Translations under genes and position numbers: made by a program
DNA from: Hyphomicrobiales bacterium
GTDB taxonomy: Bacteria > Pseudomonadota > Alphaproteobacteria > Rhizobiales > Beijerinckiaceae
Direction of reading: 5' to 3'
Assembly (NCBI GenBank): GCA_930633525.1
Contig: CAKNFP010000001.1
Span: 1,714,001 to 1,778,000 of the forward strand
DNA: 64,000 nucleotides
Shown: positions 32,462 through 52,669 of the stretch, piece after piece
How the letters are laid out: every line of letters starts with the position of its first letter
Numbering within the stretch: position 1 is the stretch's first letter
Notes under the pieces: generated by a model
What the model saw: the letters and a program-made list of their open reading frames with translations, nothing else
The model's database searches: none
Told to the model about the DNA's origin: nothing

Positions 32462-34024
32462 ATGCACGACAGCATCCTCATCATCGACTTCGGCAGCCAG
32501 GTCACCCAGCTCATCGCGCGCCGTGTGCGCGAGGTTGGCGTCTACTCCGAAATTGTCCCCTTTAGCAAAGCAGAAGAAGCTTTCGCTTCTCTGAAGCCCA
32601 AGGGCGTTATCTTCTCCGGTGGCCCCGCTTCGGTGATGGTGGCCGGCAGCCCCCGCGCGCCCCAGGCCGTGTTTGACTCCGGCGTGCCGATTCTCGGCAT
32701 CTGTTATGGGCAGCAGACCCTGTGCCTGCAGCTCGGCGGAGAGGTCGAGGGGGGGCACGCCGCGGAGTTCGGCCGCGCCGACGTTGAAATCAAGGCCGCG
32801 AGCCCTCTGTTCGAAGGGGTGTGGGAGGTTGGCAAGCGCTATCCAGTGTGGATGAGCCATGGCGACCGCGTCACGCGCCTGCCCGAAGGGTTCAGCGTCA
32901 TCGCGACGTCCGAGAACGCGCCCTTCGCGATCGCGGCCGACGAGAGCCGGCATTACTATACCACGATGTTCCATCCCGAGGTCGTGCATACGCCGGATGG
33001 GGCAAAGCTGCTCGCCAATTTCGTCCATAAGATCGTCGGGCTGAAGTCCGATTGGACCATGTCGGCCTATCGGGCGGAGATGATCCGCAAGATCCGCGAG
33101 CAGGTCGGTGACGGGCGGGTGCTCTGCGCGCTGTCGGGCGGGGTTGATTCCTCCGTCGCCGCGGTCCTCATCCACGAGGCGATCGGAGATCAGCTCACCT
33201 GCGTCTTCGTGGACCACGGCCTGATGCGGCTCAATGAGGCGGCGGAAGTCGTCAAGATGTTCCGCGAGCATTACAATCTGCCGCTCGTGCATGTCGATGC
33301 CTCCGACCGCTTCATCGGCGAACTCGAAGGCGTTTCCGATCCGGAGACCAAGCGCAAGATTATCGGTCGTCTCTTCATCGAAGTGTTCGAGGACGAGGCC
33401 AAGAAGATCGCGGCCGACGGCAAGGGGGCGCCAAAATTCCTCGCCCAGGGCACGCTCTATCCGGACGTGATCGAAAGTGTGTCCTTCTCCGGCGGCCCCT
33501 CGGTCACCATCAAGTCCCATCACAATGTCGGCGGGCTGCCCGAGCGCATGAACATGCAGCTTGTCGAGCCCCTGCGCGAATTGTTCAAGGATGAGGTGCG
33601 TGCCCTCGGCCGAGAGCTCGGCCTGCCCGAACAGTTCATCGGACGCCATCCGTTCCCGGGCCCGGGCCTCGCTATCCGCCTTCCGGGCGGAGTGACGCGG
33701 GAGAAGCTCGATATCCTGCGCAAGGCCGATGCGATCTACCTCGAAGAGATCCGCAAGGGCGGGCTCTATGACACGATCTGGCAGGCCTTTGCCGTGCTCC
33801 TGCCGGTTCAGACCGTCGGCGTCATGGGCGACTACCGCACCTATGAGTTCGTCTGCGCACTGCGCGCGGTCACCTCCGTCGACGGCATGACGGCGGATTT
33901 CTATCCCTTCGACATGCCCTTCCTCGGCCGCGTCGCGACCCGCATCATCAACGAGGTCCGCGGCATCAACCGGGTGACCTACGACGTAACCAGCAAGCCG
34001 CCCGGGACGATTGAGTGGGAATGA
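32462..34024 (+). CDS. guaA: GMP synthase (glutamine-hydrolysing)
   Basis: 520 residues. Converts XMP to GMP. Glutamine amidotransferase domain (about 1-200) with the nucleophile Cys in [14 protein letters not shown] near residue 81 and the His/Glu of [15 protein letters not shown] pyrophosphatase domain with P-loop [16 protein letters not shown] near 225; C-terminal dimer domain ending [10 protein letters not shown]. The conserved 3' end of guaA is a documented attachment site for genomic islands, and an integrase gene begins 294 bases downstream. Confidence 0.98.
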
Positions 34025-34105: not shown

Positions 34106-34126
34106 CTATCGAGATCTATCGGTGGG
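34106..34126. repeat. Left outer end motif of the putative element
   Basis: CTATCGAGATCTATCG followed by GTGGG. Its mirror image, CCCACCG then CGATAGATGCCGATAG, lies at 45566-45597 (14 of 16 bases match after reverse complement). Position and pairing suggest an element-end recognition site. Confidence 0.6.
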
Positions 34127-34188
34127 CACAGATGGCGTTCGGCGGCCTCACTGACGGGCCTCACCCCCATTGATCAACCGGAAAAACG

Positions 34189-34200
34189 AAAGTACCGTCA
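34189..34200. promoter_or_regulatory. Probable integrase arm site, inverted (AAAGTACCGTCA)
   Basis: Twelve-base motif, reverse complement of the two copies that follow and of the one at 45518-45529. Four copies of a 12-mer clustered at the integrase and one distant spot is far from chance. Confidence 0.65.
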
Positions 34201-34216
34201 GGTCAACCGAGGCCAA

Positions 34217-34228
34217 TGACGGTACTTT
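34217..34228. promoter_or_regulatory. Probable integrase arm site (TGACGGTACTTT)
   Basis: Direct copy of the motif, 16 bases after the inverted one; the pair forms a dyad that could also bind a regulator of the integrase promoter. Confidence 0.65.
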
Positions 34229-34288
34229 TTTCGAACTATTACGCTGAAATATAAGCGTTTTCGACGACATCGGCCTGCAAAAACCGCG

Positions 34289-34300
34289 TGACGGTACTTT
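34289..34300. promoter_or_regulatory. Probable integrase arm site (TGACGGTACTTT) next to the integrase start
   Basis: Direct copy 18 bases before the integrase ATG, overlapping the place where its ribosome site (GAGGAGG) begins. Binding there would repress the integrase. Confidence 0.65.
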
Positions 34301-34318
34301 TCCGCGAGGAGGCCCGAA

Positions 34319-35575
34319 ATGTTGACCGATGCAGCACTCAAGTCTTTGAAACCAAAAGCCAAAATGTACAAGGTTTCCGATCGTGACGGCATGTATGTGC
34401 GCGTCGCCCCGTCGGGCGCCATCTCGTTCAGGCTCGACTATCGGCTGAACGGCAGGCGGGAGACCGTGTATCTCGGCAGATATGCCCGTGACGGAATATC
34501 ACTCGCCAGGGCTCGCGAGCTATGCATTGACGCGCGGCGAGCGATCACCGAGGGGCGGTCCCCCGCCATCGAGAAGCAGCGCGAGAAGCGCCGGATCAAG
34601 GAAGCAAAGAGTTTCGGCCAGTTCGGCGAGAAGTGGCTGACCAACGCGACCATGGCCGACAGCACGCGCGCGATGCGTCGCTCCATCTTCGAACGCGAAC
34701 TTATGCCCGTCTGGCGCAATCGTCTCCTCACGGAGATCACACCGGATGATCTACGCACTCACTGCGGCAAGATCGTCGAACGGGGTGCGCCTGCAACTGC
34801 TATCCATGTGCGGGATATCCTGAAGCAGATCTACGGCTTTGCCATTCTGCACGGCGAGAAGGTCGCCAATCCGGCCGATGACGTCGGTCCAGCCTCGATC
34901 GCTACCTTTACGCCGAATGATCGCGCGCTTTCGCCCGCAGAAATCCGCATCATGTTCAAGCAACTCGAGCATGTTGCGACGTTGCCAACGATCCGCCTGG
35001 GTATGAAGCTCTACCTGCTCACCATGGTCCGGAAGAGCGAGTTGCAGGATGCAGTTTGGGACGAGATCGATTTCGACAACGCTGTCTGGACCATCCCGAA
35101 GGAGCGCATGAAGCGGTCGAAGCCGCACAACGTCTACCTGTGCCGACAGACACTCGACATCATGATCGCGCTCAAGACCTGCTCCGGCAACTCCCGATAT
35201 CTGTTGCCGTCCCGGTACGACGCGGACGCGCCAATGTCTCGCGCGACCTTCAATCGGATCACCTACGCTGTCGTCGAGCGGGCCAAGAAGGAGGGGCTGC
35301 CACTGGAGCCATTCACGGTGCATGATCTGCGGCGTACGGGCTCGACGCTGTTAAATGAGCTGGGTTTTAACAGCGACTGGATCGAAAAGTGCCTGGCGCA
35401 TGAGGACGGGCGTTCGTCGCGCGGCGTCTATAACAAGGCCGAGTATGAGGTGCAGCGTCGGCATATGATGCAGCAGTGGGCGGATACCGTGGACGCCTGG
35501 ATCGACGGCCGGAAGTATGCCCCCACGCTTTTGCCGCAAGCTATGCCCTTGATGGAACTGGATCCCGCCCTTTGA
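34319..35575 (+). CDS. P4-type tyrosine integrase (DUF4102 domain)
   Basis: 418 residues. N-terminal DUF4102 arm-binding domain (LTDAALKSLKPKAKMYKVSD to LARARELCIDARRAI), a SAM-like core-binding domain (about 95-185), and the catalytic domain with Arg in YLLTMVRKSELQDAVWDEID, HDLRRTGSTLLNELG, His in CLAHEDGRSSRGV and nucleophile Tyr in YNKAEYEVQRRHMM. Ribosome site GAGGAGG eight bases before the ATG. All catalytic residues are present, so the enzyme may be active. Its place after guaA fits integrases that target the guaA 3' end. Confidence 0.93.
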   Translation: MLTDAALKSLKPKAKMYKVSDRDGMYVRVAPSGAISFRLDYRLNGRRETVYLGRYARDGISLARARELCIDARRAITEGRSPAIEKQREKRRIKEAKSFGQFGEKWLTNATMADSTRAMRRSIFERELMPVWRNRLLTEITPDDLRTHCGKIVERGAPATAIHVRDILKQIYGFAILHGEKVANPADDVGPASIATFTPNDRALSPAEIRIMFKQLEHVATLPTIRLGMKLYLLTMVRKSELQDAVWDEIDFDNAVWTIPKERMKRSKPHNVYLCRQTLDIMIALKTCSGNSRYLLPSRYDADAPMSRATFNRITYAVVERAKKEGLPLEPFTVHDLRRTGSTLLNELGFNSDWIEKCLAHEDGRSSRGVYNKAEYEVQRRHMMQQWADTVDAWIDGRKYAPTLLPQAMPLMELDPAL

Positions 35576-35825
35576 CCGGGCGGGATTTGCGCTTGGTTAC
35601 GTCAGGGTGCTGTGCTCGACGGATCGGGGCAGCCCGCCGTGCCATTAGCCACGCCTCGACCTCGGCCAGGTCCCAGACGATACAACGCGGCGAGAGTGCG
35701 AACCGACGGGGAAACTCGCCACGCTGCTCCATTTCATAAATAGTGCTGTCAGCCATCGGCACCATCTCCCGCAACTGCTGTCGCCGAATTGTTCTCCGAA
35801 TTTGCGTAATTTCAATCTTTGCCAT
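35541..35825 (-). CDS. AlpA-family DNA-binding regulator
   Basis: 94 residues from the ATG at 35825. An AlpA/MerR-like helix-turn-helix: LREMVPMADSTIYEMEQRGE, FPRRFALSPRCIVWDLAEVE, AWLMARRAAP, the order found in P4-type island regulators. Such proteins switch on the island integrase or excision. It is convergent with the integrase and overlaps its last 35 bases, an arrangement that lets each transcript affect the other. Confidence 0.85.
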   Translation of the reverse strand: MAKIEITQIRRTIRRQQLREMVPMADSTIYEMEQRGEFPRRFALSPRCIVWDLAEVEAWLMARRAAPIRRAQHPDVTKRKSRPVKGRDPVPSRA

Positions 35826-35998
35826 GCTCAATCTCCTGCGTTGCTGAGGCGATTGAGACTGATAGATGCTGATACTGGAAGTCCTTTTGGAATTCCGTGC
35901 GGTATTTTCGGGCTATAGCGTACACATCGGCGGGTTCGTCTTGACTGCTAGGTGCAGCATAAGGCCGGAAAGACGCGGATGGACAAGCTGAAGCGTAT

Positions 35999-36093
35999 GG
36001 GGGGCGTTACGGGGAGACGCATTCAGTAAACGCGACGCCCTGAAAATCCGGTTTCGAAAGGAGTATCGGCTCGATTCCGACCACCCGCCCCCC
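35999..36093 (+). other. tRNA-like structure or tRNA relic
   Basis: An eight-base complementary pair GGGGGGCG (35999-36006) and CGCCCCCC (36086-36093) encloses 79 bases. Inside are CTGAAAATCC (36040-36049), like an anticodon loop, and a T-arm-like hairpin TCGG-CTCGATT-CCGA (36066-36080). The T-arm does not join the acceptor-like stem directly (about five extra bases), so it is not a standard tRNA. It may be a decayed tRNA, an attachment-site relic or an unrelated RNA. Confidence 0.35.
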
Positions 36094-36208
36094 TTAAATC
36101 CGACGTTGCGGGCTAGCTGAGGTCCTCAGCGCCGTCGGCGCCGTCGATCTGTGCCTACGCAGCGGCGCGCGGCGCGTACTCAACGCCGAAAAGCGTCACT
36201 CTGAGGCG

Positions 36209-36993
36209 TTATCCGGCGTCCTCCCGGGGAGTGGCGACGGCTGCAACGACTTCCGCTTCATCCTCGATATCATCCACCGTTTCGTGGCTCCGGCCAAGGA
36301 ACAAAAAGACGACTATGGCCGTCAGCATCGTGATCGCGCTGAGCAACCACAGCAGCGTAGAGAAACCTTCGCTATATCCTTGGAGAAGAGCGACGCGTTC
36401 CATGGAGGGCAGGAGAGCCGCTGCCTCCGAAACGTCGCCAGTGACGAGCCTTTGAGCGATGGACCCCGCTTGAACACCAGCAGTCGCGTCAAGGTTGGAA
36501 CTGATAAGCACCGACAGCACCGCCGACGCCAATGCGAGCGCCACGCCCTCGCCAGCGACGCGAGACGTGCTGAAGATGCCCGTCGCCATGCCCGCCCGCT
36601 CTTTCGGCACCACGCTGACGGCAAGACCGTCCATTAGGCCCCAAGGCAAACCTATACCAACGCCTATGGTGATCAGCGGCGCGATCAGAGCCACAGGATC
36701 AGAGCCGACCGGATATCGGCCGAGCCAGTAGAGGCCAACGGCCGCGATCGCGAGTCCGGCCCCGCAGATTGTGGCCGGAGCGAGCCAGCGGGTCAGCAAC
36801 CCGGCTGCGATCGGCAAAACGAGCAAAGGGGCGGACAGCGCAATCATCATCTGGCCGGCTGCGATCTCGTCCATCCCTTCAATCCCGATGAAGCGCACCG
36901 GCATCAAAACCAGGAGCACAACGAAGGCATAGGCTGGCGCCACCGCCAGCAACTGTGCGCCGACGAAACGCGGAAAGCGAAACAGCGACAGGT
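36209..36993 (-). pseudogene. C-terminal half of an MFS exporter, cut by IS21 element
   Basis: About 260 residues of a 12-14 segment MFS protein, beginning at the left IS end and continuing in frame to ETVDDIEDEAEVVAAVATP. Seen: AGLLTRWLAPATICGAGL, GVGIGLPWGLMDGLAVSVV, PKERAGMATGIFSTSRVAGE (late DHA2 motif), and hydrophobic helices. The first half of the gene is missing because the insertion element abuts it at 36994. The few codons before it come from the element. It is not expected to function. Confidence 0.85.
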
Positions 36994-37105
36994 TGTTGAT
37001 TTCCACTGAGAGCTGACCCGGCGCAGCGCGATATTTCCATTGAGAATTGACCCATGTTTGAACCGTCCCTCGCATGTTTTCAGCGGGGGCTCTGGAGTGA
37101 TCGAC

Positions 37106-38632
37106 ATGGCATTACTGAGCGTGATCCGACGCTGGCATTTTCGAGAACATCTATCGATCCGGGAGATTTGCCGCAGGACCGGCCTTTCCCGGAATACCAT
37201 CCGCAAATACCTGCGTGCCGGCGGCGTGGAGCCGAAGTTCAACATCCCGGAGCGGCCGAGCAAGCTCGATCCGTTTGCGGATCGGTTGTCGGCCTGGCTG
37301 AAGACGGAATCCAAGAAGGGCCGCAAGCAGAAGCGGACGATGAAGCAGTTGCATGTCGATCTGGTCAGCCTTGGCTACGAGGGCTCCTACAATCGCGTGG
37401 CGGCATTTGCTCGGGAATGGCGGGACGATTGGCAGAGGGAACTGCAGACGACGGGCCGTGGGACATTTGTGCCCTTGGCGTTTGAACCTGGCGAGGCCTT
37501 CCAGTTCGACTGGTCGGAGGACTGGGCGATCATCGGCAATGAGCGCACGAAGCTGCAGATTGCTCATACGAAGCTGAGCTACAGCCGCGCTTTCATCGTC
37601 CGGGCTTATCTTCTGCAGACCCACGAGATGCTATTTGACGCGCACAATCATGCGTTCCGCGTCTTTGGCGGCATTCCCGGTCGAGGCATCTACGACAACA
37701 TGCGCACGGCGATCGACAAGGTTGGTCGTGGCAAGGAGCGCGACGTCAATGTCCGCTTCATGGCGATGGCCAGTCACTACGTGTTCGAGCCGGAATTCTG
37801 TAATCCTGCTTCCGGCTGGGAGAAGGGACAGGTCGAGAAGAATGTTCAGGATGCTCGTCATCGCTTCTTTCAACCCATCCCGCGCTTTCCATCACTGGAA
37901 GCCCTGAATGACTGGCTTGAGCTTCGATGCAAGGAGTTCTGGGCAAAGACCCCGCACGGTCAGATACGTGGCACCATTGCCGACCTCTGGGCTGAGGAGG
38001 CGCCAGCCCTTATGCCTGTTTCCCGGCCGTTCGACGGCTTTGTGGAATATACCAAGCGCGTGACACCAACCTGCCTCGTACATCTGGAGCGCAACCGCTA
38101 CAGCGTCCCGGCATCCTTTGCCAATCGACCGATAAGCCTTCGCGTCTACCCGGAACGGGTCGTAGTTGCCGCGGAAGGTCAGATCGTCTGCGAGCATCGT
38201 CGCGTCATTGATCGTTCCCATGACCGGCCGGGCCAGACCATTTACGACTGGCGGCATTATCTGGCGGTCGTGCAGCGCAAGCCCGGCGCTCTACGCAACG
38301 GCGCTCCCTTCATCGAGCTGCCGGAGGCATTCAAGAGCTTGCAGCAATATCTGCTCAAAAAGCCGGGCGGCGATCGCGAGATGGTCGACATCCTGGCTCT
38401 TGTTCTCCAGCACGACGAACAAGCAGTGCTCTCGGCCGTCGACATGGCGCTGAAGTCCGGCGTTCCAACCAAAATGCATGTGCTGAACCTGCTGCATCGC
38501 CTCGTCGACGGCAAATCCTCCACACCGCCGACCCTTGACGCACCCCAGGCGCTGACACTCACCAATGAGCCCAAGGCCAATGTCGAGCGATACGATACCT
38601 TGAGAAAGACGGAGGTTCGCCATGCGTCATAA
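37106..38632 (+). CDS. istA: IS21 transposase IstA
   Basis: 508 residues from the ATG at 37106. N-terminal helix-turn-helix [23 protein letters not shown] integrase core with [14 protein letters not shown] (first Asp), [18 protein letters not shown] (second Asp) and [16 protein letters not shown] (Glu), and a C-terminal beta-barrel region. It overlaps istB by 11 bases. No internal stops, so the element may be active. Confidence 0.95.
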
Positions 38633-39434
38633 CCCGGCAAGCGGCGCGATCGTCATCATGCTACGGCAATTGAAGATGCATGGGATGGCCCACGCCGTCG
38701 GTGATCTGACCGAGCAAGGATCGCCGGCATTCGAGGCTGCCATTCCGATCCTGTCCCAGCTTCTCAAGGCGGAAACGGCCGAACGAGAGGTCCGATCGAC
38801 CGCATATCAGTTCAAGACGGCACGCTTCCCGGCCTACCGTGATCTGAACGGCTTCGACTTCGCCAGCAGCGAGATCAACGAGGCGCTCGTGCAACAGCTT
38901 CATCGCTGCGACTTCCTCGACGACGCCAATAACATTGTCCTGGTCGGCGGTCCCGGCACGGGTAAGACGCATATCGCAACCGCGATCGGCGTCCAGGCCA
39001 TCCAGCATCATCACAAACGGGTCCGGTTCTTCTCCACCGTCGAGTTGGTCAATGCGCTGGAGCAGGAAAAAGCACAGGGCCGTTCAGGACAGATCGCCAA
39101 TCGCCTCGTCCACTCCGATCTCGTGATCCTCGACGAGCTGGGATACCTGCCGTTCAGCGCTTCAGGTGGCGCGCTGCTCTTCCATCTGCTGAGCAAACTA
39201 TACGAGCGCACCAGCATCATCATCACGACCAACCTGAGCTTCAGCGAATGGGCCAGTGTCTTCAGCGATGCCAAGATGACAACCGCGCTGCTCGATCGGC
39301 TCACCCATCATTGCCACATCCTGGAAACCGGAAACGACAGCTTCCGCTTCAAGAATAGCTCGGCGCACGATCCCAAACCAACGAAGGAGAAACGCAGGAA
39401 CTTGACCACCACGACCAACACGAACGATACCTAA
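38622..39434 (+). CDS. istB: IS21 ATPase IstB
   Basis: 270-residue AAA+ helper of IstA that selects targets and assembles the transposome. Walker [19 protein letters not shown] near residue 108, Walker [20 protein letters not shown] near 170, sensor [16 protein letters not shown], and arginine-containing [16 protein letters not shown]. The C-terminal tail is Lys/Thr-rich. Intact. Confidence 0.95.
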
Positions 39435-39488
39435 AGGCGGGTCACTTCTCGGTGGAAACGCCGGGTCAGCTCTCAGTGGAAATCAACA

Positions 39489-39948
39489 GTATGCCAAATC
39501 GCGTGATGCCGTTGGCGGATAATTCCAACTGGATTCGCAAGGTCTTTGATTGCAGGCACCGAAAAAGGAATGCTCCGTCCAGCTTTTCGGGGTGCGGCCG
39601 GATCATTGCCAAGTGGTAGCCGCAAACGAAATCATCTGCTGTCTCTGTCACGAGGGCGGGAATGCCGATGTCGTCCCAAGCCTCTGAGTCTTTCGTGATG
39701 ACGACATCATCAGCGAGCAAGCGAAACTTGCTGATCTCGGCTTTCGTCGCGGTTCCCGCCATAAACTCCATGCCGAGATGGATTTTCTCGTTGTTGTAAA
39801 CGTCCGTGTAATTGCAGAGGCGAACTGGCAGCTCCTCATCCGTCAGGACCTTATCAACGTTGCTAACGGCGTAATCCGCGACTGACCGAAGAGGCCGCAC
39901 GGTCCAATCAGGCGGAATCTCACTGTGCCAAGCGTCGATGCCACTCAT
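39489..39948 (-). pseudogene. hsdS: Type I restriction specificity subunit HsdS, truncated by IS21 element
   Basis: The first about 153 residues of an HsdS: GIDAWHSEIPPDWTVRPLRS, DVVITKDSEAWDDIGIPALV, CGYHLAMIRPHPEKLDGAFL, QSKTLRIQLELSANGITRFG, the pattern of the first target-recognition domain. The frame enters the IS at 39488 and stops seven codons later. A normal HsdS has two such domains and about 400-450 residues. Its ATG overlaps the hsdM stop (ATGA). A half HsdS can sometimes dimerise, but loss of the conserved central repeat makes that unlikely. Confidence 0.9.
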
Positions 39949-41948
39949 TCCGTCACCTCCCGCAAGAGCCGCAGGATTTCGTCCTCCGCCTTCTTCAGGT
40001 CCGCGTCGATGTCGACCAGCTTGCGAGGCGGTGTGAACTGATAGAAGTGGCGGTTGAAGTTGATCTCGTAGCCGACTTTGTCCTTGCTCCGGTCCATCCA
40101 GGCATCCGGCACATGCGGCAGAATCTCACGCGCTAAGTAAGCGCCGATATCCTCTTTCAGCGGGATGTTCTCGAAGTCGCGCAGGTCGGGATCGGCCTCG
40201 AACCCCTTGCCTTCCCTGACCCGCTCGGCATCAGAGTCCTTCTCGGTGAACACGTTGCGGAATAGCTTGACCTCGGGTGCACGCCAGCGAGAATCGCGCT
40301 TCTTCAAAAGCTTCTCGATGCTGCCCCAGACCTTGTTCCAGTCCAGTTCGGGCTCGCGCCCCAGTGCCTGGTCGATTGCCTGAATGTCGTCGAGCAGACG
40401 TGGCGCTGCGTCGAGGAAACGGGCCTTGTCCTCGACCGTCATCCGGTAGCGCAGCCGAAGGGGACGTTCGATAGTTACGCGGGTGTAGCCGAAGTCGTCG
40501 TTGTCGAAGATCTTTGACTTCGCGTTCGGAGCGAACGCGCCATACAGGCGCACGATCTCGCCGATCTGATCGGGTTCGTCCGGCCGGTCGTCGCCCTCAG
40601 GTGCCTTGCCCGCGCCAATCTTGCGACGCTTGTCGCCCTGACTGCGGCCCATCGGCATATGAATGTCGCGCGCATCCACTAGCTGGATAGTGCCCTTGCG
40701 ATACGCGGGCTTGTTGTTGGTGACGATCCAGATGTAGGTGCCGATCCCAGTGTTGTAGAACATCTGTTCCGGTAGGGCGACGATGGCCTCGAGCATGTCG
40801 CGCTCGATGATCCACTTGCGGATGTTGCTTTCGCCGCCGCCAGCCCCCCCGTTGAACAGAGGCGAACCTGAGAAAACGATGGCCGCCCGCGAACCATACT
40901 TCTGCGCCTTGGGATCGACGTCCTCGAACTTCGAGATCATGTGCTGAAGGAAGAGTAACGAGCCGTCGTTCACACGCGGTAGGCCTGCGCTCCATGGGCT
41001 GTCCTGCGGGGCCTTCTCGTGCCGCCGGACGATTTCCTTCTGCTGCCTCTTCCAGTCCACGCCGAAGGGCGGATTGGCGATGAAATAGTCGAAGGTCTGG
41101 CCTTCGAATTTGTCATCGGTGAAGCTGTCGCCGAACTGAACGTTCTCGCCTCCACCGTTGTGGTCGACCTGCTTCATCAGCATGTCGGATGCGGCCGTCG
41201 CGAAGGCGCGCTTGTTGTAGTCCTGGCCGTAGACGTAGAGCTTCGCGTCCTTGTGGTGATCGCGCATGTAGCGTTGCGCTTCGGCGAGCATGCCCCCCGT
41301 GCCGCATGCCGGGTCGAGCATGCGCATCACCGTGCCTGGCTTGCTGAGCACGTCGTCGGCATCAATGAAGAGTAGATCGACCATGAGGTGAATCACCTCA
41401 CGCGGCGTGAAGTGATCGCCCGCTGTTTCGTTGGCTAGTTCGTTGAAGCGTCGGATGAGGTTTTCGAATACGAGGCCCATCTGATCGTTCTTCACCCGGT
41501 CGGGATGAAGGTCGACCTTCAAGAACTCCTTCAGCACTAGATAAAGGATGTTCGCCTCGTTCATCTTCTCGATTTCGTTGGTGAATTCGAAATACTCGAA
41601 GATCCGGCGAACATTTGCCGAGAAGCCGCTGATGTAGGATTGGAGATGCCCCACGAGATCTGAGGTGTCGCCGATCATCGTTTCGAACGTCATTGACGAA
41701 CGGTTGTGGAATCGGTGGCCGGAAGCTTTGTTCAGCATCCTATCAAGGGCATCATCTTCCAACTTCCCGCCTTTGCGTCGCGCAAATTCCGCAAGTACTT
41801 TCTGCTTGGTGTCGGCGAGCACACAATCGAAGCGGCGCAGAACGACAAGTGGCAGCATGACGCGCTCATACTGCGGCGGGCGATAGGGCCCACGCAGGAG
41901 GTCAGCGATCTGCCAAATCAAGTTGGCCAAATCCGAGTGGGTTGCCAT
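39945..41948 (-). CDS. hsdM: Type I DNA N6-adenine methyltransferase subunit HsdM
   Basis: 667 residues. N-terminal HsdM helical domain (MATHSDLANLIWQIADLLRG), then the methylase: NELANETAGDHFTPREVIHL, SAM motif RMLDPACGTGGMLAEAQ near residue 210, catalytic NPPFGVDW near 300, and GSLLFLQHMISKFEDVDPKA. A C-terminal extension of about 180 residues is usual for this subfamily. Intact, but its HsdS partner is truncated and no hsdR gene lies in the window, so restriction is lost and methylation probably also. Confidence 0.95.
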   Translation of the reverse strand: MATHSDLANLIWQIADLLRGPYRPPQYERVMLPLVVLRRFDCVLADTKQKVLAEFARRKGGKLEDDALDRMLNKASGHRFHNRSSMTFETMIGDTSDLVGHLQSYISGFSANVRRIFEYFEFTNEIEKMNEANILYLVLKEFLKVDLHPDRVKNDQMGLVFENLIRRFNELANETAGDHFTPREVIHLMVDLLFIDADDVLSKPGTVMRMLDPACGTGGMLAEAQRYMRDHHKDAKLYVYGQDYNKRAFATAASDMLMKQVDHNGGGENVQFGDSFTDDKFEGQTFDYFIANPPFGVDWKRQQKEIVRRHEKAPQDSPWSAGLPRVNDGSLLFLQHMISKFEDVDPKAQKYGSRAAIVFSGSPLFNGGAGGGESNIRKWIIERDMLEAIVALPEQMFYNTGIGTYIWIVTNNKPAYRKGTIQLVDARDIHMPMGRSQGDKRRKIGAGKAPEGDDRPDEPDQIGEIVRLYGAFAPNAKSKIFDNDDFGYTRVTIERPLRLRYRMTVEDKARFLDAAPRLLDDIQAIDQALGREPELDWNKVWGSIEKLLKKRDSRWRAPEVKLFRNVFTEKDSDAERVREGKGFEADPDLRDFENIPLKEDIGAYLAREILPHVPDAWMDRSKDKVGYEINFNRHFYQFTPPRKLVDIDADLKKAEDEILRLLREVTE

Positions 41949-41994
41949 GTAATTCAGTCTCCTGCCGGTTCGCCCGGCCTGTTATTTTGCTTGA

Positions 41995-42198
41995 TTAGTC
42001 TTCTTGGGATGAAAGTCGGCCGGACGCTGCAGTAGAAGCTTGCTTTTTCGCTTTGGCCGTCAATCGCTCGAATTCTTCAATTGCGAGAACCACGACGACG
42101 GACCGACCATATTTTTCAATGGCAACAGGCTCCGCCCTTGCCATGTCGATCAAGCGCCCAAAGGCGTTTTTTGCGTCACGCGCCGATATGCTCTGCAT
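41995..42198 (-). CDS. Phd/YefM-type antitoxin without visible toxin
   Basis: 67 residues from the ATG at 42198: MQSISARDAKNAFGRLIDMA, REPVAIEKYGRSVVVVLA-like second strand (AEPVAIEKYGRSVVVVLAIE), then EEFERLTAKAKKQAS. This is the Phd DNA-binding fold. It lies 46 bases upstream of hsdM on the same strand with no toxin gene between or before. Phd-like genes next to type I restriction genes may act as their regulators; alternatively the toxin was lost. Confidence 0.8.
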   Translation of the reverse strand: MQSISARDAKNAFGRLIDMARAEPVAIEKYGRSVVVVLAIEEFERLTAKAKKQASTAASGRLSSQED

Positions 42199-42415
42199 GG
42201 AGAGATCCCCTTCCAAATTGGAGCCATTTTAGCCAACATTCTTGGCGATGAACAGGCACTAAATGTGCTGAGCCAGACACTCCTCGTTGAGACATTGGGA
42301 AGCCCCTCGACGGACAGGCAGATCACGGAGAATGGGGCTTTTTGCCTGCGCGTGGCACCCCTTCGGCCTTTATAGCTGTCAGAAAACAGCGTATGCTTCT
42401 GACAGGAGAGTGCAC

Positions 42416-43009
42416 ATGCGACGCTTGACCGAACAGATTATTGAGCATGCGAAACAACTGCCGGAGGGCACGCCTGTCGCAGCCAAAAGCTTGCTTTACC
42501 TTGGTACACGCGCTGCGGTGGACCAGGCCCTGTCGCGCCTTGCCGAGCGGGGGCAACTGATCCGAGCCGGACGCGGCGTGTATCTACTGCCCGTTATGAG
42601 CCGGTTCGGCGCTCGAGCGCCGTCCGTAGAGCAGGCGGTCGAGGCACTGGCCGCGCAGCGCGGCGAGGTAATCGTTTCGAGCGGAGCGGTCGCCGCCAAC
42701 AGCCTCGGCCTTACGACGCAGGTGCCGGTCCGCTCCGTCTACCTGACGTCGGGGCGCACCCGGAAGATGAGCCTCGGCAAACAGACCGTCGAGCTTCGCC
42801 ATGCTCCGCGCTGGCAACTCGCCATGGCGCATCGGCCCGCGGGACAGGCGTTGCGAGCGCTGGCCTGGCTCGGACCGGAAAGGGCTGAGACTGCGCTCCA
42901 AACCCTGAAGCGCAAGCTCCCGCCTTCTGAGTTCAGCGAACTTGTAGCGGCGGCACCCCAGCTTCCGAATTGGCTCGCACGCAGTGTAGGTAAGGTCGCG
43001 TATGGCTGA
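42416..43009 (+). CDS. AbiEi-like type IV antitoxin / DUF6088 regulator
   Basis: 197 residues from the ATG at 42416 with an AGGAG nearby upstream. N-terminal winged helix (LTEQIIEHAKQLPEGTPVAA, AAVDQALSRLAERGQLIRAG, RGVYLLP), then an AbiEi-type domain (SVEQAVEALAAQRGEVIVSS, VRSVYLTSGRTRKMSLGKQT). Antitoxins of this kind repress their own operon and counter AbiEii nucleotidyltransferase toxins. Its stop overlaps an ATG (ATGGCTGA) that opens only a stub of such a toxin, so the antitoxin is now an orphan. Confidence 0.82.
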   Translation: MRRLTEQIIEHAKQLPEGTPVAAKSLLYLGTRAAVDQALSRLAERGQLIRAGRGVYLLPVMSRFGARAPSVEQAVEALAAQRGEVIVSSGAVAANSLGLTTQVPVRSVYLTSGRTRKMSLGKQTVELRHAPRWQLAMAHRPAGQALRALAWLGPERAETALQTLKRKLPPSEFSELVAAAPQLPNWLARSVGKVAYG

Positions 43010-43070
43010 CGTCCTGCGGCTCCTTCCAGCCGAAGATCCGGCGGTAGTCATTAGGGGGGCAAAGCGCCCT
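43002..43070 (+). pseudogene. Stub of an AbiEii-type nucleotidyltransferase toxin
   Basis: From the ATG at 43002 the frame reads MADVLRLLPAEDPAVVIRG, matching the start of AbiEii/AbiGii toxins (MAD-LRL---DR), then turns into unrelated sequence and stops at 43224. Nucleotidyltransferase motifs (GGTSLSK-type and DxD) are absent, so the body of the gene has been deleted. Confidence 0.6.
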
Positions 43071-43200
43071 ACGTCATGGCACTCGTCTTCAATGAGCTTT
43101 GACGACGCGATAAAAGCGCTAGTCAGTTCATTACTCGTGGACTGGGTTTTGCGCATAAGCGCTGGACATCAAAGCAAGATACATAAGCAGGGGGCTCGAT

Positions 43201-45294
43201 ATGGAACTGATCAAATTCAAGGTTGAAAACTTCAGGTCCGTTGAAGACAGCGGATGGATCAGTGTCGAGCGTATCGGCGCCTTCATCGGCGTGAACGAAT
43301 CCGGCAAGACCAATTTATTAACGCCACTTTGGAAGCTTAATCCAGCCCAAGAGGGAGAGATTCAGCCAACGTCAGATTATCCAAAAAAGCTATTTGGAAC
43401 AATCCGCGCCAAACCCGCGAATTACTGGTTTATCACGGCGATCTTCAGGACCGGCGGTCTCGCCGACAATCTTACTGATGTCACAGGCAGGAAGAGAGAA
43501 GAGCTTGAAACGGTCCAAGTCTGGCGGAATTTCGCCGGCAACTACTACGTAAGCTTCCCAGGCTGCAAAACGCTGGACACCGTTGCGGCTACCGAGATCG
43601 AAAGTATGCTGAAGGCCACTTTGGAGGCAATCGAGACAATCGCCGCGCTCGCCAAGGAAGACGCAATACGGGCTAAGATGCTCGCCCTGTTGAACACCGA
43701 AGTTGGACAGCTGGGTGCGGCCTCCCTAAAGGCGCCGGCTCTCAAGGCGCTTATCGACCGGCTCGCCGCAGCCCAACCCGAGGAACCAGCAAAGACGAGC
43801 GTAATTTCACCGCGCTTCGCTCAGCTCATTGAAACGCTTCAGGAGCACCACAACCTCATGTCCGCACCCGCACCGGGATCGAAGGGGCACGGACTTGAAG
43901 AGGTTTTAGAAGCGCTACCCAAGTTTGTTTACTACTCGAACTACGGCAATCTCGATTCAGAGATTTATCTGCCGCACGTCGTTCAAAATCTCAAACGCGA
44001 AGACCTCGGCAGCAAAGAAGCCGCCAAGGCTCGGACACTTCGTGTGTTATTCAAGTTCGTAGGACTGTCGCCAGAAGAGATACTGGAGTTGGGTAGGGAC
44101 TTTAAGGATCCGGACAATCCGAACCGGGAGCCGACTCCGTCTGAAGCGGCAGCAATCGGCGAGAAAAAGCGCGAACGTTCTATTTTGCTTCAGTCCGCGA
44201 GCGCGCTCCTGACGAAGCGATTCCGCGAGTGGTGGAAGCAGGGCGATTACCGTTTCCGCTTTGAGGCGGACGGTAACCATTTCCGCATTTGGGTCGCCGA
44301 TGAGCGGCGCCCGGAGGAGATAGAGCTGGAGAGCCGCAGCACGGGCCTGCAGTGGTTCCTAAGCTTTTATCTCGTCTTCCTCGTGGAAAGCGAAGAAGCC
44401 CATCGCAATTCGGTTTTGCTGCTGGACGAGCCCGGCCTGTCGCTTCATCCTCTCGCACAGCGCGACTTATCGGAGTTCTTCGAAGGGCTGACCGAAACGA
44501 ACCAGATTCTCTACACGACGCATTCACCATTCTTGGTTGATGCGGACCACCTTGACCGCGCGCGGAAGGTCTATGTCGCACCCGATGGCACAACAAAGGC
44601 GACTGAAAATCTGCGCGAGGGCGCTGAAGGGCCGGGCCAGGCCGGCGCTTCGTATGCCGTCCATTCGGCGCTTAACCTCACGGTGGCAGAGAGCTTGCTG
44701 CTCGGATGCCAACCGACGCTTGTCGAGGGTGCCTCCGACCAGCACTACCTAACGGCAATCAAAACGCTGCTCATTCGTTCGGGGAAAATCACACCGAAGC
44801 GCGAGTTGGTCTTCCCTCCGTCCGGCGGCGCTAAGACAGCCCGGATGGTTGCCAGCATTCTGACCGGCCGCGACGAAGCGCTGCCGCTTGTCCTTCTCGA
44901 TAGCGATAATGCCGGCCGCAAGATGGCGAATGAACTCAAAAGCTCACTCTATCAAGATGGTCAAGACCGAGTGCTGGAGGTGCAAACTTTCGTCGGTTTC
45001 GGCGAGGCGGAGATTGAAGACCTGATACCGCCCGCCTTTTTGGCTGACATTGTCGACCGTTGGCAAAGAATGTCCGACCCGGAAGACGAATTTTCACTGG
45101 CGCTGCAAGCAGGCAAGCCGATTGTTCCACAGATCGAGGCGTGGGCCGCTAAACATGGACTCACGTTGGAGAAAGGCTGGAAAGTTGAGATCGCGAAGCG
45201 CTTTAAGCAGCTCGCCTTGACCCGTGGTATCGAAGCGTTCGATGAAGCCGTACTGGCAAAATGGGTGACTCTGTTTGAAAAGTTGGCCAGCTGA
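43201..45294 (+). CDS. OLD-family ATPase-TOPRIM nuclease (solo, class 1-like)
   Basis: 697 residues. ABC-type ATPase split by an insert: FKVENFRSVEDSGW, Walker A FIGVNESGKTNLLTPLWKL near residue 35, signature-like IELESRSTGLQWFLSFYL near 380, Walker B VLLLDEPGLSLHPLAQRD near 405, and switch histidine YTTHSPFLVDADH near 440. After about residue 505 comes a TOPRIM nuclease domain: TLVEGASDQHYL (Glu) and PLVLLDSDNAGRKMANEL (Asp-x-Asp). OLD nucleases act in phage defence; class 2 members pair with a UvrD-like helicase, absent here. All motif residues are present. It is the intact defence gene of this element. Confidence 0.88.
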   Translation: MELIKFKVENFRSVEDSGWISVERIGAFIGVNESGKTNLLTPLWKLNPAQEGEIQPTSDYPKKLFGTIRAKPANYWFITAIFRTGGLADNLTDVTGRKREELETVQVWRNFAGNYYVSFPGCKTLDTVAATEIESMLKATLEAIETIAALAKEDAIRAKMLALLNTEVGQLGAASLKAPALKALIDRLAAAQPEEPAKTSVISPRFAQLIETLQEHHNLMSAPAPGSKGHGLEEVLEALPKFVYYSNYGNLDSEIYLPHVVQNLKREDLGSKEAAKARTLRVLFKFVGLSPEEILELGRDFKDPDNPNREPTPSEAAAIGEKKRERSILLQSASALLTKRFREWWKQGDYRFRFEADGNHFRIWVADERRPEEIELESRSTGLQWFLSFYLVFLVESEEAHRNSVLLLDEPGLSLHPLAQRDLSEFFEGLTETNQILYTTHSPFLVDADHLDRARKVYVAPDGTTKATENLREGAEGPGQAGASYAVHSALNLTVAESLLLGCQPTLVEGASDQHYLTAIKTLLIRSGKITPKRELVFPPSGGAKTARMVASILTGRDEALPLVLLDSDNAGRKMANELKSSLYQDGQDRVLEVQTFVGFGEAEIEDLIPPAFLADIVDRWQRMSDPEDEFSLALQAGKPIVPQIEAWAAKHGLTLEKGWKVEIAKRFKQLALTRGIEAFDEAVLAKWVTLFEKLAS

Positions 45295-45517
45295 TCTTAT
45301 GCAATATCGGTACCGTTGTTCGTCAAGGGGGCTGCGGCTTGTGGAAATGCTACTCCCTCGCATTGATACAAATCCTCGGATTATAGCGGCTTAAAACTGA
45401 GGTTTAGTATCGATTCGGCAGAGACGCGCAGCACGTTCCGGGCTTCTTTAATCTGCAAAGCCAATCCGCCAATCCCGCGATCTGGGATCGAGGTGGGTGT
45501 ATTGATTTTGCCGGTTG

Positions 45518-45529
45518 TGACGGTACTTT
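45518..45529. promoter_or_regulatory. Distal copy of the integrase-linked motif (TGACGGTACTTT)
   Basis: Fourth copy of the 12-base motif, about 11.2 kb from the three at the integrase and 224 bases after the OLD stop. Preceded by CCGGTTG, as the inverted left copy is by CGGTTGACC on its own strand. Marks the likely right end of the element. Confidence 0.65.
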
Positions 45530-45565
45530 ATTGGAGGCAAAAGATTCGAGATTTGAGGTCTATGT

Positions 45566-45597
45566 CCCACCGCAAACCGGTCGATAGATGCCGATAG
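45566..45597. repeat. Right outer end motif of the putative element
   Basis: CCCACCG, nine bases, then CGATAGATGCCGATAG; mirror image of 34106-34126. Lies 36 bases outside the right copy of the 12-base motif, as the left pair is arranged with 62 bases. Confidence 0.55.
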
Positions 45598-45604
45598 TTC
45601 ACAG

Positions 45605-45743
45605 AATTTTTTCTGCGCTAAAATTGCCAAAGAATTTCGTAAAATCAAAAGGATAAGTTTTTGACGGCCTGCGCCTCGGCGCTGGCGGCCAAAGAAAATA
45701 TTTTCTGCAATAAAATCAATCGCTTATTGTAGAAAAAATATTT
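45605..45743. repeat. AT-rich region with related hairpins
   Basis: Three related pieces: AATTTTTTCTGCGCTAAAAT at 45605, and an imperfect palindrome of AAATATTTTCTGCAATAA (45696-45713) with TTATTGTAGAAAAAATATTT (45724-45743). The common core is TTTTCTGC/AC followed by AATAA or CTAAAA. The palindrome ends just where the trbF pseudogene loses its reading frame, so it may be a recombination or insertion scar. Confidence 0.5.
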
Positions 45744-45764
45744 GAATGGGCAATCGTTGAGCCT

Positions 45765-46164
45765 CCTGCGCCGCGATCGGTGGTCCATTCATCGGCGCGA
45801 AGCCAGTTCTGGCGGACGATGATCGGATCGGCCGGGATGGAACGGACCTGCTCGATGAAGCGGCCGAGATGCCAGGCGATCTGCGGATCGGTCGGGCGGT
45901 GGTCGGTGCGACGGTCTGGGCCTGGCCGAGCTTGTCGACCTGCACCACCCAAGGAACGACGGTTCCCTGCACGGACTGCCAGACGAGTGCAGCCGCAAAG
46001 CCACCAGCGAGAACCAGCGAGCCGAAGGCCATCAGCCGCCAGTTCTTCGCCTGCACACGGGCCGAGCCGATCCGGTCGTCCCAGACCTGCGCGGCGCGCT
46101 GATAGGGAGTCTCGGGTTGCGGTGTCTTGCCGTAATGGGCGGCGGGTCTTTTGAAGAGGTTCAT
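45765..46164 (-). pseudogene. trbF: Conjugal transfer protein TrbF, frameshifted and truncated
   Basis: The ATG at 46164 opens MNLFKRPAAHYGKTPQPETP and a membrane segment (MAFGSLVLAGGFAAALVWQS) followed by VVPWVVQVDKLGQAQTVAP. Near 45905 the reading moves to another frame, PTDPQIAWHLGRFIEQVRSI and ADPIIVRQNWLRADEWTTD, then homology ends about 45765. TrbF (VirB8-like, inner-membrane pilus scaffold) normally has about 220-240 residues. It overlaps the trbL stop (TGATG), the native gene order. Confidence 0.85.
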
Positions 46165-47446
46165 CAGCGGTCACTTTCAGAGAGGTTGATGGAAGAACCG
46201 GAGCCGTGGCTGTCGCCGGAACGGATGGCGTGGGCGGCGGCGCTGACGCCGTGGCTGACGGTCTGGTTGCGCTTCATGTGCTTGGCCTAATCCGGAGCGC
46301 TGCCGGTCGCGTCGAAGCCGGTCTTCGCGCCATCGGAGAAGCTGGACTTGAGGCTTTCAGACGAGTGAGCTGCGGCACGGCGCAAGGGAGACGTGGCGGC
46401 CGATCCTGCGGTGCGCGCGACCGCGCCCATGCCGGAGGCGACGCCGGACACGCCGGATTTACCGAGCGAGCCGAGCGAATAGGCCGAAGAGGCCGCGCCC
46501 GCCGCCATCGCACCGCCGCGAGCAGCTGCGGCCCCGCCGGAGAGCAAGGCGGAGCCACCCTTAGCGGCTATCATCGCGCCGCCGACGGCCATTGCCGCGC
46601 CGCCGGCTGCGAGGACGGTGCCGATGGCAGCGCCAGCGCCCAGCTGCGGGTCGCCGGAGACGAGGCCGTTGGCGATGCCGGGGCCGAAGATGCCGAGGGC
46701 CACAAGGGAAGGCGCGGCCAGCACGACGGCCATGCGTCATCGATGCTCGGGGTCTGCCCGCCGAAGCCCTTGGTAAATTCACTGAACAGCGTCGAGCCGA
46801 TGCCGATGATGACGGCCAGCACCAGAACCTTGATGCCCGACGAGATGACGTTGCCGAGCACCTTTTCGGCCATGAAGGCGGTTTTCCCGAAGAGGCCAAA
46901 CGGAATGAGGACAAAGCCGGCGAGCGTCGACAGTTTGAACTCGATCAGGGTGACGAAGAGCTGGATTGCCAGAATGAAGAAGGCGAGGATGACAAGCGCC
47001 CAGGCGAAGAGCAGGCACGCGATCTGGATGAAGTTCTCGAAGAAGGCGACCCAGCCCATCAGGTCGGAAATGGATTCGAGCAACGGGCGAGCGGCATCAA
47101 GGCCGGTCTGGGCGACCTTGCCGGCGCGCATCAGGTCGGCGGCCGAAAAGCCCGTGCCGCTCGCCTTGAGTCCCAATCCCGCGAAGCTGTCGAAGACGAT
47201 CTTCGCAAGGTTGTTCCAGTTGCCGATGAGATAGGCGAAGGCGCCGACGAATAGCGTCTTCTTGACGAGGCGGGCGATGATGTCGTCATCCGCGCCCCAG
47301 GACCAGAACAGCATGGCCAGCGTCACGTCGATGACGATGAGCGTCGTCGCGATGAAGGCTACTTCGCCCGACAACAAGCCGAAGCCGGAGTCGATATAGC
47401 GGGAGAAGACCCCAAGGAAATTGTCGATAACGCCAGCGCCGCCCAT
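46164..47446 (-). pseudogene. trbL: Conjugal transfer protein TrbL, frameshift plus nonsense codon
   Basis: From the ATG at 47446: MGGAGVIDNFLGVFSRYIDS, then several membrane helices (FFENFIQIACLLFAWALVIL, TLAGFVLIPFGLFGKTAFMA) to GGQTPSIDDA. Near 46735 the frame shifts and continues MAVVLAAPSLVALGIFGPG with the Gly/Ala/Ser-rich C-terminal part. At 46287-46289 a TAG interrupts where relatives have Trp (GSAPD, stop, AKHMKRNQTVSHG), and the tail runs to LSESDR. TrbL is the VirB6-like channel of the mating apparatus; this copy is dead. Confidence 0.88.
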
Positions 47447-47933: not shown

Positions 47934-48358
47934 TCATGCCAGCAACTGCGCCGGGACACCAAGCGCCAGTCCGGCATCGGCCAGCCTCTGGTCGAGCGTA
48001 TGTACCGTGGCGCCATGCTCCGACGCGATGGCGAGATGCAGTGCATCTCCCGCACGCAGCCCAAGCGTATGTTGATCGGCAAACTTTGCCGCCGCCCGGA
48101 ACTGCCCGCCCGTCACGGGCAGCAGGGTGAAACTTTCGGCGACCAGCTTGTTGAACATGGCAAGTGCGGCTGCGCGCTGCTCCAAGCTGATCTGTCCGGT
48201 CCGCAACTTGATTGCCATGGCGGAAGACATCTCGGTGAGGGTCCAGTCGCTGATCAGGAGTTGCGCCGGATCCTGCTCCGCCAGCCAGGCCTGAACACGC
48301 GGCGTCATCGCTTCGTTGGAGAGCGCCGCGACGATCAGCGACGTGTCGAGATACAGCA

Positions 48359-48359
<1 letters not shown>
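47934..48359 (-). CDS. VapC-like PIN-domain toxin
   Basis: 141 residues. PIN ribonuclease fold with the acidic set: [16 protein letters not shown] (first Asp), [15 protein letters not shown] (Glu), [20 protein letters not shown] (Asp), [11 protein letters not shown] (last Asp). Such toxins cut tRNA or rRNA. The start overlaps the antitoxin stop (TGATG). The reading frame is intact, unlike everything around it, so the pair may help retain the surrounding dead DNA. Confidence 0.9.
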
Positions 48360-48791
<432 letters not shown>

Positions 48792-49240: not shown

Positions 49241-49417
49241 ACGGCCATCCGCTCAGCGCGCCGCGCCAGTCACGATCGGAAGCTCGGAAATGAAGCCGAT
49301 CTGGTGGATCGAAGCGGGCGGAGGATCGGCAACGTCCTCTGTGAGTGGAAAGCGCCGATCGATGCGCAGGCGCGGCTCGAAACGGGCGACCCAGTCGCGA
49401 ATCCTCGTCGTCGTCGC

Positions 49418-49619
49418 GTCGTCACGGCGGGTTACGTGCTTGCCGGCCGCAAGGTCGCTGTGACGCGCGGGACGCGGCGCGCAGGTTTTCGGCAACCGGC
49501 GCGGCTATCTGACCGTGCATCCCTCCTATCTCCTGCGGGTGCCGGATGAGGCGGCGAGGCGCGTGGCCTACGAGGCCTTCATCGCCGACCTGCGGGCCGT
49601 GCGCGATATGGTCGGCTAG
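49418..49619 (+). pseudogene. C-terminal remnant of a UdgX-like uracil-DNA glycosylase
   Basis: VVTAGYVLAGRKVAVTRGTR in one frame, then after a frameshift near 49480 QVFGNRRGYLTVHPSYLLRV, PDEAARRVAYEAFIADLRAV and a TAG. TVHPSYLLR-PDE is the conserved C-terminal block of UdgX and family 4 glycosylases. The N-terminal two thirds with the active-site motif is missing. Confidence 0.65.
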
Positions 49620-49644
49620 GGCAGGCCGTCCATAACCCGGATGC

Positions 49645-50313: not shown

Positions 50314-50516
50314 GCTATCTAAGTATTCAAAGCAATAGCTTGATTTATAGCCGCGGCGACGAAGGGGCGCAACTATCCCGGAATGACCCGCTCAGGCGGG
50401 CGCGATGATAGGGTGTACTGCTCGCGCCTGGCCCTGGCGATCGTGGTCTCATTCCCGGGATGTGTCTGCGGGCGAGCTCAGATTTGTGCTTCACCGCCCG
50501 CAGCATCATCCATGCG

Positions 50517-50969: not shown

Positions 50970-51023
50970 AATGAAACCTGTTTAGATGAATTGGCTTGAT
51001 AGCGTTAAGGCTGCTGGCTTTCT

Positions 51024-51040
51024 ATCTGGTTTTGGGAGAT
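51024..51040. promoter_or_regulatory. Candidate LysR-type binding site
   Basis: ATCTGGTTTTGGGAGAT is a dyad ATCT-N9-AGAT in the 104-base gap between the PACE exporter and the LysR gene; a wider CTATCT...AGATAG pair (51022-51054) encloses it. It fits the T-N11-A form of LysR sites. Confidence 0.5.
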
Positions 51041-51073
51041 AAAAAAGTTAGATAGCATCTGGAATTGAGATAG

Positions 51074-51967: not shown

Positions 51968-52012
51968 GTGCTTCCGGGCGCGGCCGGAAGCCAAGAGAAC
52001 GGGGAAGAATCG

Positions 52013-52486: not shown

Positions 52487-52669
52487 CGTGGCAGGGTCCG
52501 CCGTAATTTAGCAAGCGTTCGCTTGACAAATTATGCCGCCCATTTATCAAATTCAGCGCTTGGTCAATCAGCTTCCGGTGATCTTGCCTGCGGTGATCTT
52601 GCCTGAAGGCCGACGTCCGCCTGTGGAGATCGACCGGAGAGATGCCTGACATTCTCAAAGGAGCCTTTC

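Follow-up and report, generated by a model that had tools for sequence, protein, structure and literature searches.

What delimits the integrase-bearing stretch that lies directly behind guaA, the gene of guanosine monophosphate (GMP) synthase, in the genome of an alphaproteobacterium (Hyphomicrobiales bacterium, assembly GCA_930633525.1), and how might this stretch have acquired its present form? The question was raised by a first-pass annotation of 64,000 nucleotides of contig CAKNFP010000001.1 (positions 1,714,001 to 1,778,000; hereafter the window, in whose coordinates all positions are given), which had proposed an integrative element of about 11.5 kb with mirrored motifs at its ends. The comparisons described here provide good support for a guaA-targeting tyrosine-recombinase system whose two attachment ends, attL and attR, would bound the unit at about 34013-45751. 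Thus, the idea of an element bounded by att ends is retained, with its span corrected from 34106-45597 to about 11.7 kb. As to its history, it is moderately probable that a decayed integrative and conjugative element (ICE) at guaA took a defence cassette into an off-target site in trbF and then lost DNA beside an insertion sequence (IS) of the IS21 family. The features of the region are collected in Table 1.

Repeated Motifs at the Two Ends

The 12-base motif TGACGGTACTTT occurs, just as annotated, at 34189 on the minus strand and at 34217, 34289, and 45518 on the plus strand; all four copies are exact, and the 7.16-Mb genome contains no fifth one. From base composition, with the GC content taken as 0.64, one would expect about 0.003 such copies per 64 kb. 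When up to two mismatches are allowed, shuffled sequences contain 1.16 matches on average, and at least four matches are reached in 2 of 100 shuffles, the four real copies being all exact. Likewise, CTATCGnnATCTATCG was found again without a single mismatch at 34106-34121 on the plus strand and in the mirrored form at 45582-45597 on the minus strand. Its exact copies are expected from base composition about 0.00015 times per window; with two mismatches permitted, two matches were attained in 3 of the shuffles. The pentamer GTGGG, which had been noted next to this repeat at both ends, does touch the left copy (34122-34126), but on the right its complement CCCAC (45566-45570) lies 11 bases off. 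Not being conserved in the other aligned right ends described below, GTGGG was rejected as a part of the motif and is probably incidental.

A transfer RNA (tRNA) gene as the integration target was dropped, since ARAGORN finds zero tRNAs in the window. A general repeat search of the window did not list the ends among its families, and no RNA family reached its gathering score there.

The Left End: Probable Arm Sites between guaA and int

The integrase gene (int) is located directly 3' of guaA and is adjoined by alpA. According to Pfam, its product is a tyrosine recombinase with an arm-binding domain, so that the assignment of an integrase to a guaA-linked site holds. A tblastn search (E 1e-3) in one species-level genome collection yielded 519 stretches encoding relatives of Int, 80 of which were kept. 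The end of guaA lies 290-345 bases ahead of int in 79 of the 80 loci, the remaining contig being cut short. Conservation of the left end was evaluated over 79 loci, with L046 dropped as too short (L and G numbers are our handles for loci and genomes).

In most related loci, three copies of the arm motif are found at near-constant places before int, at about -130 on the minus strand and at about -102 and -30 on the plus strand. Conservation between guaA and int is 0.97-0.99 in the arm copies and 0.958 in the CTATCG repeats, with a mean of 0.668 elsewhere; the best of the 180 12-bp windows outside the motifs reaches 0.861. At least two exact arm copies are present in 72 of the 79 loci and all three in 46, and the exact pair of CTATCG repeats is present in 55. 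In lambda-like integrases, the N-terminal arm domain binds the arm sites and the catalytic domain cuts the core. By analogy with this established scheme, the arm domain of Int would bind TGACGGTACTTT and its catalytic domain would cut the core, AlpA is likely to be the directionality factor, and the CTATCG repeats are probably AlpA (excisionase) sites.

Homologues of guaA with 74-97% identity were found in 19 of the 21 genomes searched at E 1e-100, and among the matches listed those from outside the genus are at most 81% identical to guaA of the window. The block comprising attL, int, and alpA (from 34025 to at most 36095) retains 87-96% nucleotide identity in 22 loci (L005-L026). This identity is higher than that of guaA outside the genus, which argues that the block moved between hosts recently.

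The Right End and Its Core

The 12-mer was used to search for right ends in the genomes of 49 of the 80 int loci. Among the matches listed, many of these genomes possess an extra copy oriented as the two plus-strand copies before int. Twenty stretches holding 25 right-end copies were fetched, and a guaA-type core was sought only 190-260 bases behind the 12-mer. The resulting alignment A1 omits three copies: L089 (core absent), L096 (missed by the pattern, with the core found afterwards), and L102, whose core is degenerate. The 22 remaining right ends come from 16 other genomes; each has a guaA-type core whose end is situated 222-234 bases past the start of the motif, with the sequence GAGTGGGA in 17 cases. 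The right end of the window, itself a row of A1, is in register, with 234 bases from the motif start to the core end. As the exact 12-mer served to find the other 22 rows, its invariance in A1 is uninformative; CGATAG occurs at least once in all 22 of them, and the exact repeat pair in 11. Thus, the core site, formerly reported as unknown, now has a candidate, GAGTGGGA on the left and the degenerate GAATGGGC on the right. The earlier failure to see a second copy of the 3' end of guaA near 45.6 kb was reproduced; there is just a match with three mismatches at 47447 on the opposite strand and one at 13632, both within chance.

The attR model built from 23 rows (the 22 and the window) scores 144 bits at 45518-45750 and also recognizes the left end of the window, in mirror orientation, with 17.4 bits. 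This mirror match expresses in numbers what the first-pass annotation had noticed by inspection and upholds its view that the two mirrored clusters act as attL and attR. As a check that depends less on the 12-mer, 19 right ends were collected from model matches, and in 13 of these the 12-mer (with at most two mismatches) is situated at 223-235 bases.

It might be supposed that the motifs are regulatory operators, e.g., for autoregulation by AlpA or Int, and that the right copy is an unrelated operator. Three copies directly upstream of int could indeed also serve to regulate it. However, all 22 aligned right ends keep the guaA-type core at its distance, even though 16 of them are found on the int contig 22-102 kb away from int and 6 on other contigs, and of the 20 right-end loci fetched, just two show an integrase gene (45% identity in L100 and 75% in L102). 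The operator-only reading is therefore disfavoured and should be considered very improbable.

Distribution of the Right End and the Integrase

The attR model was run on 53 genomes, 49 of which had been chosen as int carriers. Matches of right-end strength (at least 28 bits) were found in 44 genomes, and in 27 of the 36 outside the training set; genomes with the mirror match only (G007, G020, G034, G036, and G046) are not counted among the 44. In 99 genomes of the family, the attR model (E 1e-3) matched in 22, int (1e-60) in 21, and both in 13 (Fisher p 7e-6, relatedness ignored).

The occurrence of right-end motifs in genomes without the integrase had been named in advance as an argument against paired attachment ends, and it is partly observed: 9 of the 99 genomes carry attR-model matches without int at E 1e-60. 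When searched at 1e-6, seven of the nine turned out to encode distant recombinases (26-36% identity), whereas the other two gave no match. Because in seven of the nine an attR match lies downstream of guaA on the guaA strand (in the other two, guaA was not found at E 1e-100), we read these sites as probable scars of this system or as int-less arrays belonging to it. Mismatches between attR and int across genomes stem from divergence, split contigs, or loss.

Within the genus, represented by four genomes, the window's own genome and G002 have both int and attR, G003 lacks both, and in G001 a diverged int (75%) is found with attR unmatched. The first 9 kb downstream of guaA on contig C1 of G003, which include a gene of the major facilitator superfamily (MFS), are unmatched in the window or in the fetched flank of G002; the hotspot therefore varies even without an island.

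Cargo of the Unit and the IS21 Element

The reading frames of int and alpA are open and attL is intact. The IS21-family element (36994-39488) has a cut gene on each side, MFS and hsdS, and no target duplication was seen at its ends, so an adjacent deletion is likely. Copies of this IS are 86-91% identical in the best 20 plasmid records listed. The HsdS fragment (39466-39948) has no match in Pfam. Among the 10 proteins of the unit (34319-45294) scanned against Pfam, neither a relaxase nor any other transfer family was found, with small open reading frames (ORFs) and the origin of transfer (oriT) outside the search.

Table 1. Features of the guaA region in the window, with the attachment structures proposed here
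Feature	Position	Strand	Basis
guaA (GMP synthase), 3' end being the integration target	32462..34024	+	ORF; homologues
Candidate attL core GAGTGGGA within the guaA 3' end	34013..34020	+	identical 8 bases close 17/22 aligned right ends
CTATCGnnnnCTATCG direct repeats, 10-bp period	34106..34121	+	conservation 0.958 over 79 loci
Putative arm site TGACGGTACTTT	34189..34200	-	conservation 0.969
Putative arm site TGACGGTACTTT	34217..34228	+	conservation 0.989
Putative arm site TGACGGTACTTT, its start 30 bases ahead of int	34289..34300	+	conservation 0.973
Tyrosine recombinase (int), 418 amino acids; Arm-DNA-bind_3, Phage_int_M, Phage_integrase	34319..35575	+	Pfam
AlpA-family regulator, probable excisionase	35541..35831	-	PF05930, E 3.8e-13
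MFS transporter fragment, running into the IS end	36209..37072	-	MFS_1 model positions 198-343 of 347 only
IS21-family element (istA, istB), perfect 30-bp inverted repeats	36994..39488	+	repeat search, Pfam
HsdS fragment, cut by the IS	39466..39948	-	PADLOC Specificity_I positions 8-152 of 435
HsdM, type I methyltransferase	39945..41948	-	Pfam, PADLOC (829 bits)
AbiEi-type regulator (DUF6088)	42287..43009	+	Pfam, PADLOC
OLD-like ATPase/nuclease, probable defence gene	43201..45294	+	AAA_15, AAA_21; PADLOC, with Old (79 bits) as top model
attR unit: arm site, CGATAG repeats, TGACGG half site, core	45518..45751	+	model R1, 144 bits; alignment A1
Right arm site TGACGGTACTTT	45518..45529	+	exact copy
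Mirrored CTATCG repeats	45582..45597	-	exact copy
Candidate attR core GAATGGGC, 6/8 bases as in attL; GGGC also fits trbF by eye	45744..45751	+	register in alignment A1
Remnants of an older conjugative element: trbF (5' part), trbL (frameshifted)	45752..47446	-	VirB8/TrbF, TrbL families
Toxin-antitoxin pair (PIN toxin, Phd/YefM antitoxin), located between trb remnant and chromosome	47934..48733	-	Pfam
Chromosome collinear with same-genus genomes	49407..64000	.	from 49407 with G002, from 49648 with G003

The Right Flank and the Origin of the Unit

The right flank does not support a clean, self-contained element of 11.5 kb directly beside the chromosome: immediately past the right core there is a broken trbF-trbL region, and chromosomal synteny resumes only at 49.4-49.6 kb. 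The second argument named in advance against the proposed element, an occupied-versus-empty comparison with the boundary elsewhere, thus applies in part: the synteny edge at 49.4-49.6 kb delimits the whole variable region, whereas the att structure ends at 45751.

The trb remnant has 73-78% nucleotide identity to trb genes of other elements. TrbL was searched for in 23 of the 53 genomes and matched in 20, in 19 of them (the window included) on the int contig; for genomes with several matches, we took the one located between int and attR. Of the 18 further guaA loci in which int and TrbL share a contig, 17 have TrbL antiparallel to int, at a distance of 7-24 kb. The remnant in the window is also antiparallel to int, 13 kb away, and is therefore best read as a part of a former guaA ICE. 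An inversion of the trb segment, considered as an explanation of its orientation, was dropped, since the antiparallel layout is the usual one. Two more trbL copies are present in the genome under study (contig C1 near 590897 and 3239315); other conjugative elements may therefore be present and could act as helpers.

At the junction itself, BLAST alignments of trbF to six relatives start at 45754 (three) or 45768 (three), that is, 3-17 bases past the core. Inspection by eye extends the match back to GGGC (e.g., GCGGGCATAGTCGTTGAG in relatives and GAATGGGCAATCGTTGAG in the window), and GGG is present at the junction place in five of the six trbF copies read. The following course of events would account for these data. 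An ICE with int, alpA, and an antiparallel trb operon would have resided in guaA. A cassette that carried hsdMS together with an AbiEi-type and an OLD-like gene and terminated in a right end of the group named here “type B” would then have recombined into a GGG-containing pseudo-core in trbF. Subsequently, an IS21-linked deletion would have joined the int-alpA side to the cassette, cutting the MFS gene and hsdS, and the remainder of the ICE would have decayed to leave the present 11.7-kb unit. The order of these events is one that we infer.

An off-target entry of a cassette is proposed because of what is described for the genomic island GIsul2. By experiment, its integrase and att sites are reported to be needed, with the core GAGTGGGA at guaA; GIsul2 Int also releases an int-less unit that lies between attLR and attR, and on rare occasions it used a site reduced to TGGG (PMC9376610). 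Ordinary illegitimate deletion that ended by chance at the core, without any integrase, could have produced the trbF junction as well. It would agree with the imperfect copy of the right core, the start of trbF BLAST homology only past the core, the trbF relative that has no GGG there, and the decay of the trb region, where trbL is frameshifted. However, the change-over is near the core place required by the register, which is improbable for a random deletion, and the ability of GIsul2 Int to use the TGGG site argues in the same direction; such a deletion is therefore regarded as unlikely.

Several observations weigh against the history of an ICE that took up a cassette, or against the att structures on which it builds. 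The left border due for a cassette in trbF is missing and has to be ascribed to the IS21 deletion. The GAAT of the right core differs both from the element family (GAGT) and from all six trbF relatives read, and trbF of L150 is the copy without GGG at the junction place; given these two facts, the trbF pseudo-core is only partly borne out. The ICE of G002 is an exception to the trb layout, its TrbL being parallel to int at 41 kb. In 6 of the 19 model-found right ends, the 12-mer has at least three mismatches, and three of these are also out of register. Nine of the 53 genomes are devoid of a right-end match (five with a weak attL mirror only, four with nothing), an attR match is absent in 8 of the 21 int-bearing genomes of the family, and a close int is absent in 9 of the 22 attR-bearing ones. 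Finally, the data are almost as compatible with a small int-bearing element that entered in one step.

In the latter case, a single island of about 11.7 kb with int, alpA, the defence cargo, and a type B end would have been inserted whole into a resident guaA ICE, at a pseudo-core in trbF; the DNA from guaA to that site would then have been removed via recombination of the two left cores. Int and attL are intact, and short spans from int to attR exist elsewhere at guaA: about 14.5 kb in G005, 16.9 kb in G023, 21.8 kb in G006, and 25.5 kb in G052, with TrbL unmatched in the G005 and G023 genomes at E 1e-20. However, the span of G006 holds trbL, so that short spans can be shrunken ICEs. Moreover, two integrase events with guaA restored would be required, and an IS21 without a target duplication beside two truncated genes already signals an internal deletion. 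We therefore consider the insertion of a whole island rather unlikely and prefer the decayed ICE with its off-target cassette. Judging from the two cores, the remnant could be excised only if an exchange of GAGTGGGA with GAATGGGC were tolerated, and the mobility of the unit is doubtful.

Int-Less Cassettes and Tandem Right Ends

The right ends fall into at least two groups; in a quick tree calculated without support values, type B, to which the window belongs, appears as a single cluster. Five loci (L088, L094, L101, L103, and L104) possess two successive right ends 5-11 kb apart with no int match between them. In L094 (3116-14291) and L101 (748-10526), a 9.5-kb int-less cassette between att cores is 89.7% identical; the int contigs of these two genomes are those of Rhizobium sp. 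CFBP 8762 and Martelella lutilitoris. The two cassettes are preceded by different right-end types, and the shared stretch begins about 100 bases left of the core, its left border thus being not sharply at the core. PADLOC identified the defence genes IetA, IetS, and TmtA in the cassette of L094, the one scanned, to which the L101 module was matched by DNA alone. In addition, an AbiE stretch with a type B end shows 91.7% identity over 2.2 kb between L097 and L104.

The generalization that all cassettes carry defence genes was not supported. Defence matches were obtained in two of the four distinct int-less modules examined, IetAS-TmtA in L094 (PADLOC) and AbiE in L104 (Pfam). The L103 module, in a Pfam scan only, encodes mainly short-chain dehydrogenases and an AraC regulator, and for five proteins of the L088 module PADLOC gave no match at 1e-6.

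Integrase genes have also been seen right behind such ends. In L102 (3076-4560), the beginning of a second, diverged guaA-type integrase (75%) directly adjoins a type B right end whose core is degenerate. In L100 (3268-4773), a more distant integrase (45%) starts behind the right end, possibly as a second element in tandem.

A row of four attR-model matches, 62-106 kb behind guaA, is present on contig C1 of G070 (2456097-2564259), where a close integrase is absent; this row may be either an int-less array or a fossil. Based on the 9.5-kb cassette found between att cores in two genera and on these four right ends behind guaA in one genome without a close int, it is tentatively proposed, with less than even confidence, that there is a class of int-less cassettes, several of them with anti-phage defence genes, which would share the type B end and a guaA-type core, cross alphaproteobacterial genera, and stack behind one guaA integrase like a slow integron at guaA. 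No description of such an int-less array class in Alphaproteobacteria was found in the literature searched, outside of which most subscription papers fall; guaA ICEs and islands are described there.

For a widespread guaA integrase family, exact and testable att sites (arms, repeats, and core) are now proposed, and with the att sites defined, machine calling of the ends of such islands becomes possible. The cassettes suggest that genes, defence genes among them, might join guaA arrays in an int-less form, and off-target GGG sites may allow int-less cassettes to break resident ICEs.

Comparison with Known Systems

Cis-mobilizable elements (CIMEs) and tandem accretion represent a concept in which int-less modules flanked by att sites stand in tandem with an int-bearing element. 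The modules described here resemble them in being int-less, att-bounded, and in tandem with an int-bearing element, but differ from them in being located at guaA and in sharing one conserved right end across genera. Both terms occur in PMC7563491 and PMC5704250. The unit of the window carries int and is thus neither a CIME nor an int-less cassette, and no left core of the proposed cassette is visible inside it. Nor would it be classed as an ICE, which would have a relaxase and full type IV secretion genes inside its att sites: the 10 proteins scanned include no transfer family, and the trbF and trbL remnants lie outside attR. As regards an integrative and mobilizable element (IME), which would have a relaxase or oriT of its own, a relaxase is absent among these 10 proteins.

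The closest counterpart is GIsul2 (PMC9376610). The window shares with it the guaA 3' end as the target, the core GAGTGGGA, and the order of int followed by alpA, and in both systems there are int-less units bounded by att cores, excised in GIsul2 by the same Int. Of the two cores of the window, the left is exact GAGTGGGA, whereas the right candidate, GAATGGGC, is in register but agrees in 6/8 bases only. Unlike GIsul2, the window is alphaproteobacterial and carries defence-type cargo instead of CR2-sul2 (PMC9376610). The ICEs that Mesorhizobium carries at guaA and IntG of tripartite ICEs (PMC8627217, PMC9973854) are likewise similar in their integration at guaA, trb-type conjugation genes, and alphaproteobacterial hosts, whereas the window keeps only trbF-trbL remnants, outside attR. 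It was the present analysis that defined the arm motifs and the conserved right end, about 230 bp long. Overall, the element of the window is of a known kind, like GIsul2 and the guaA ICEs, and the newer part is the int-less cassettes that have its right end.

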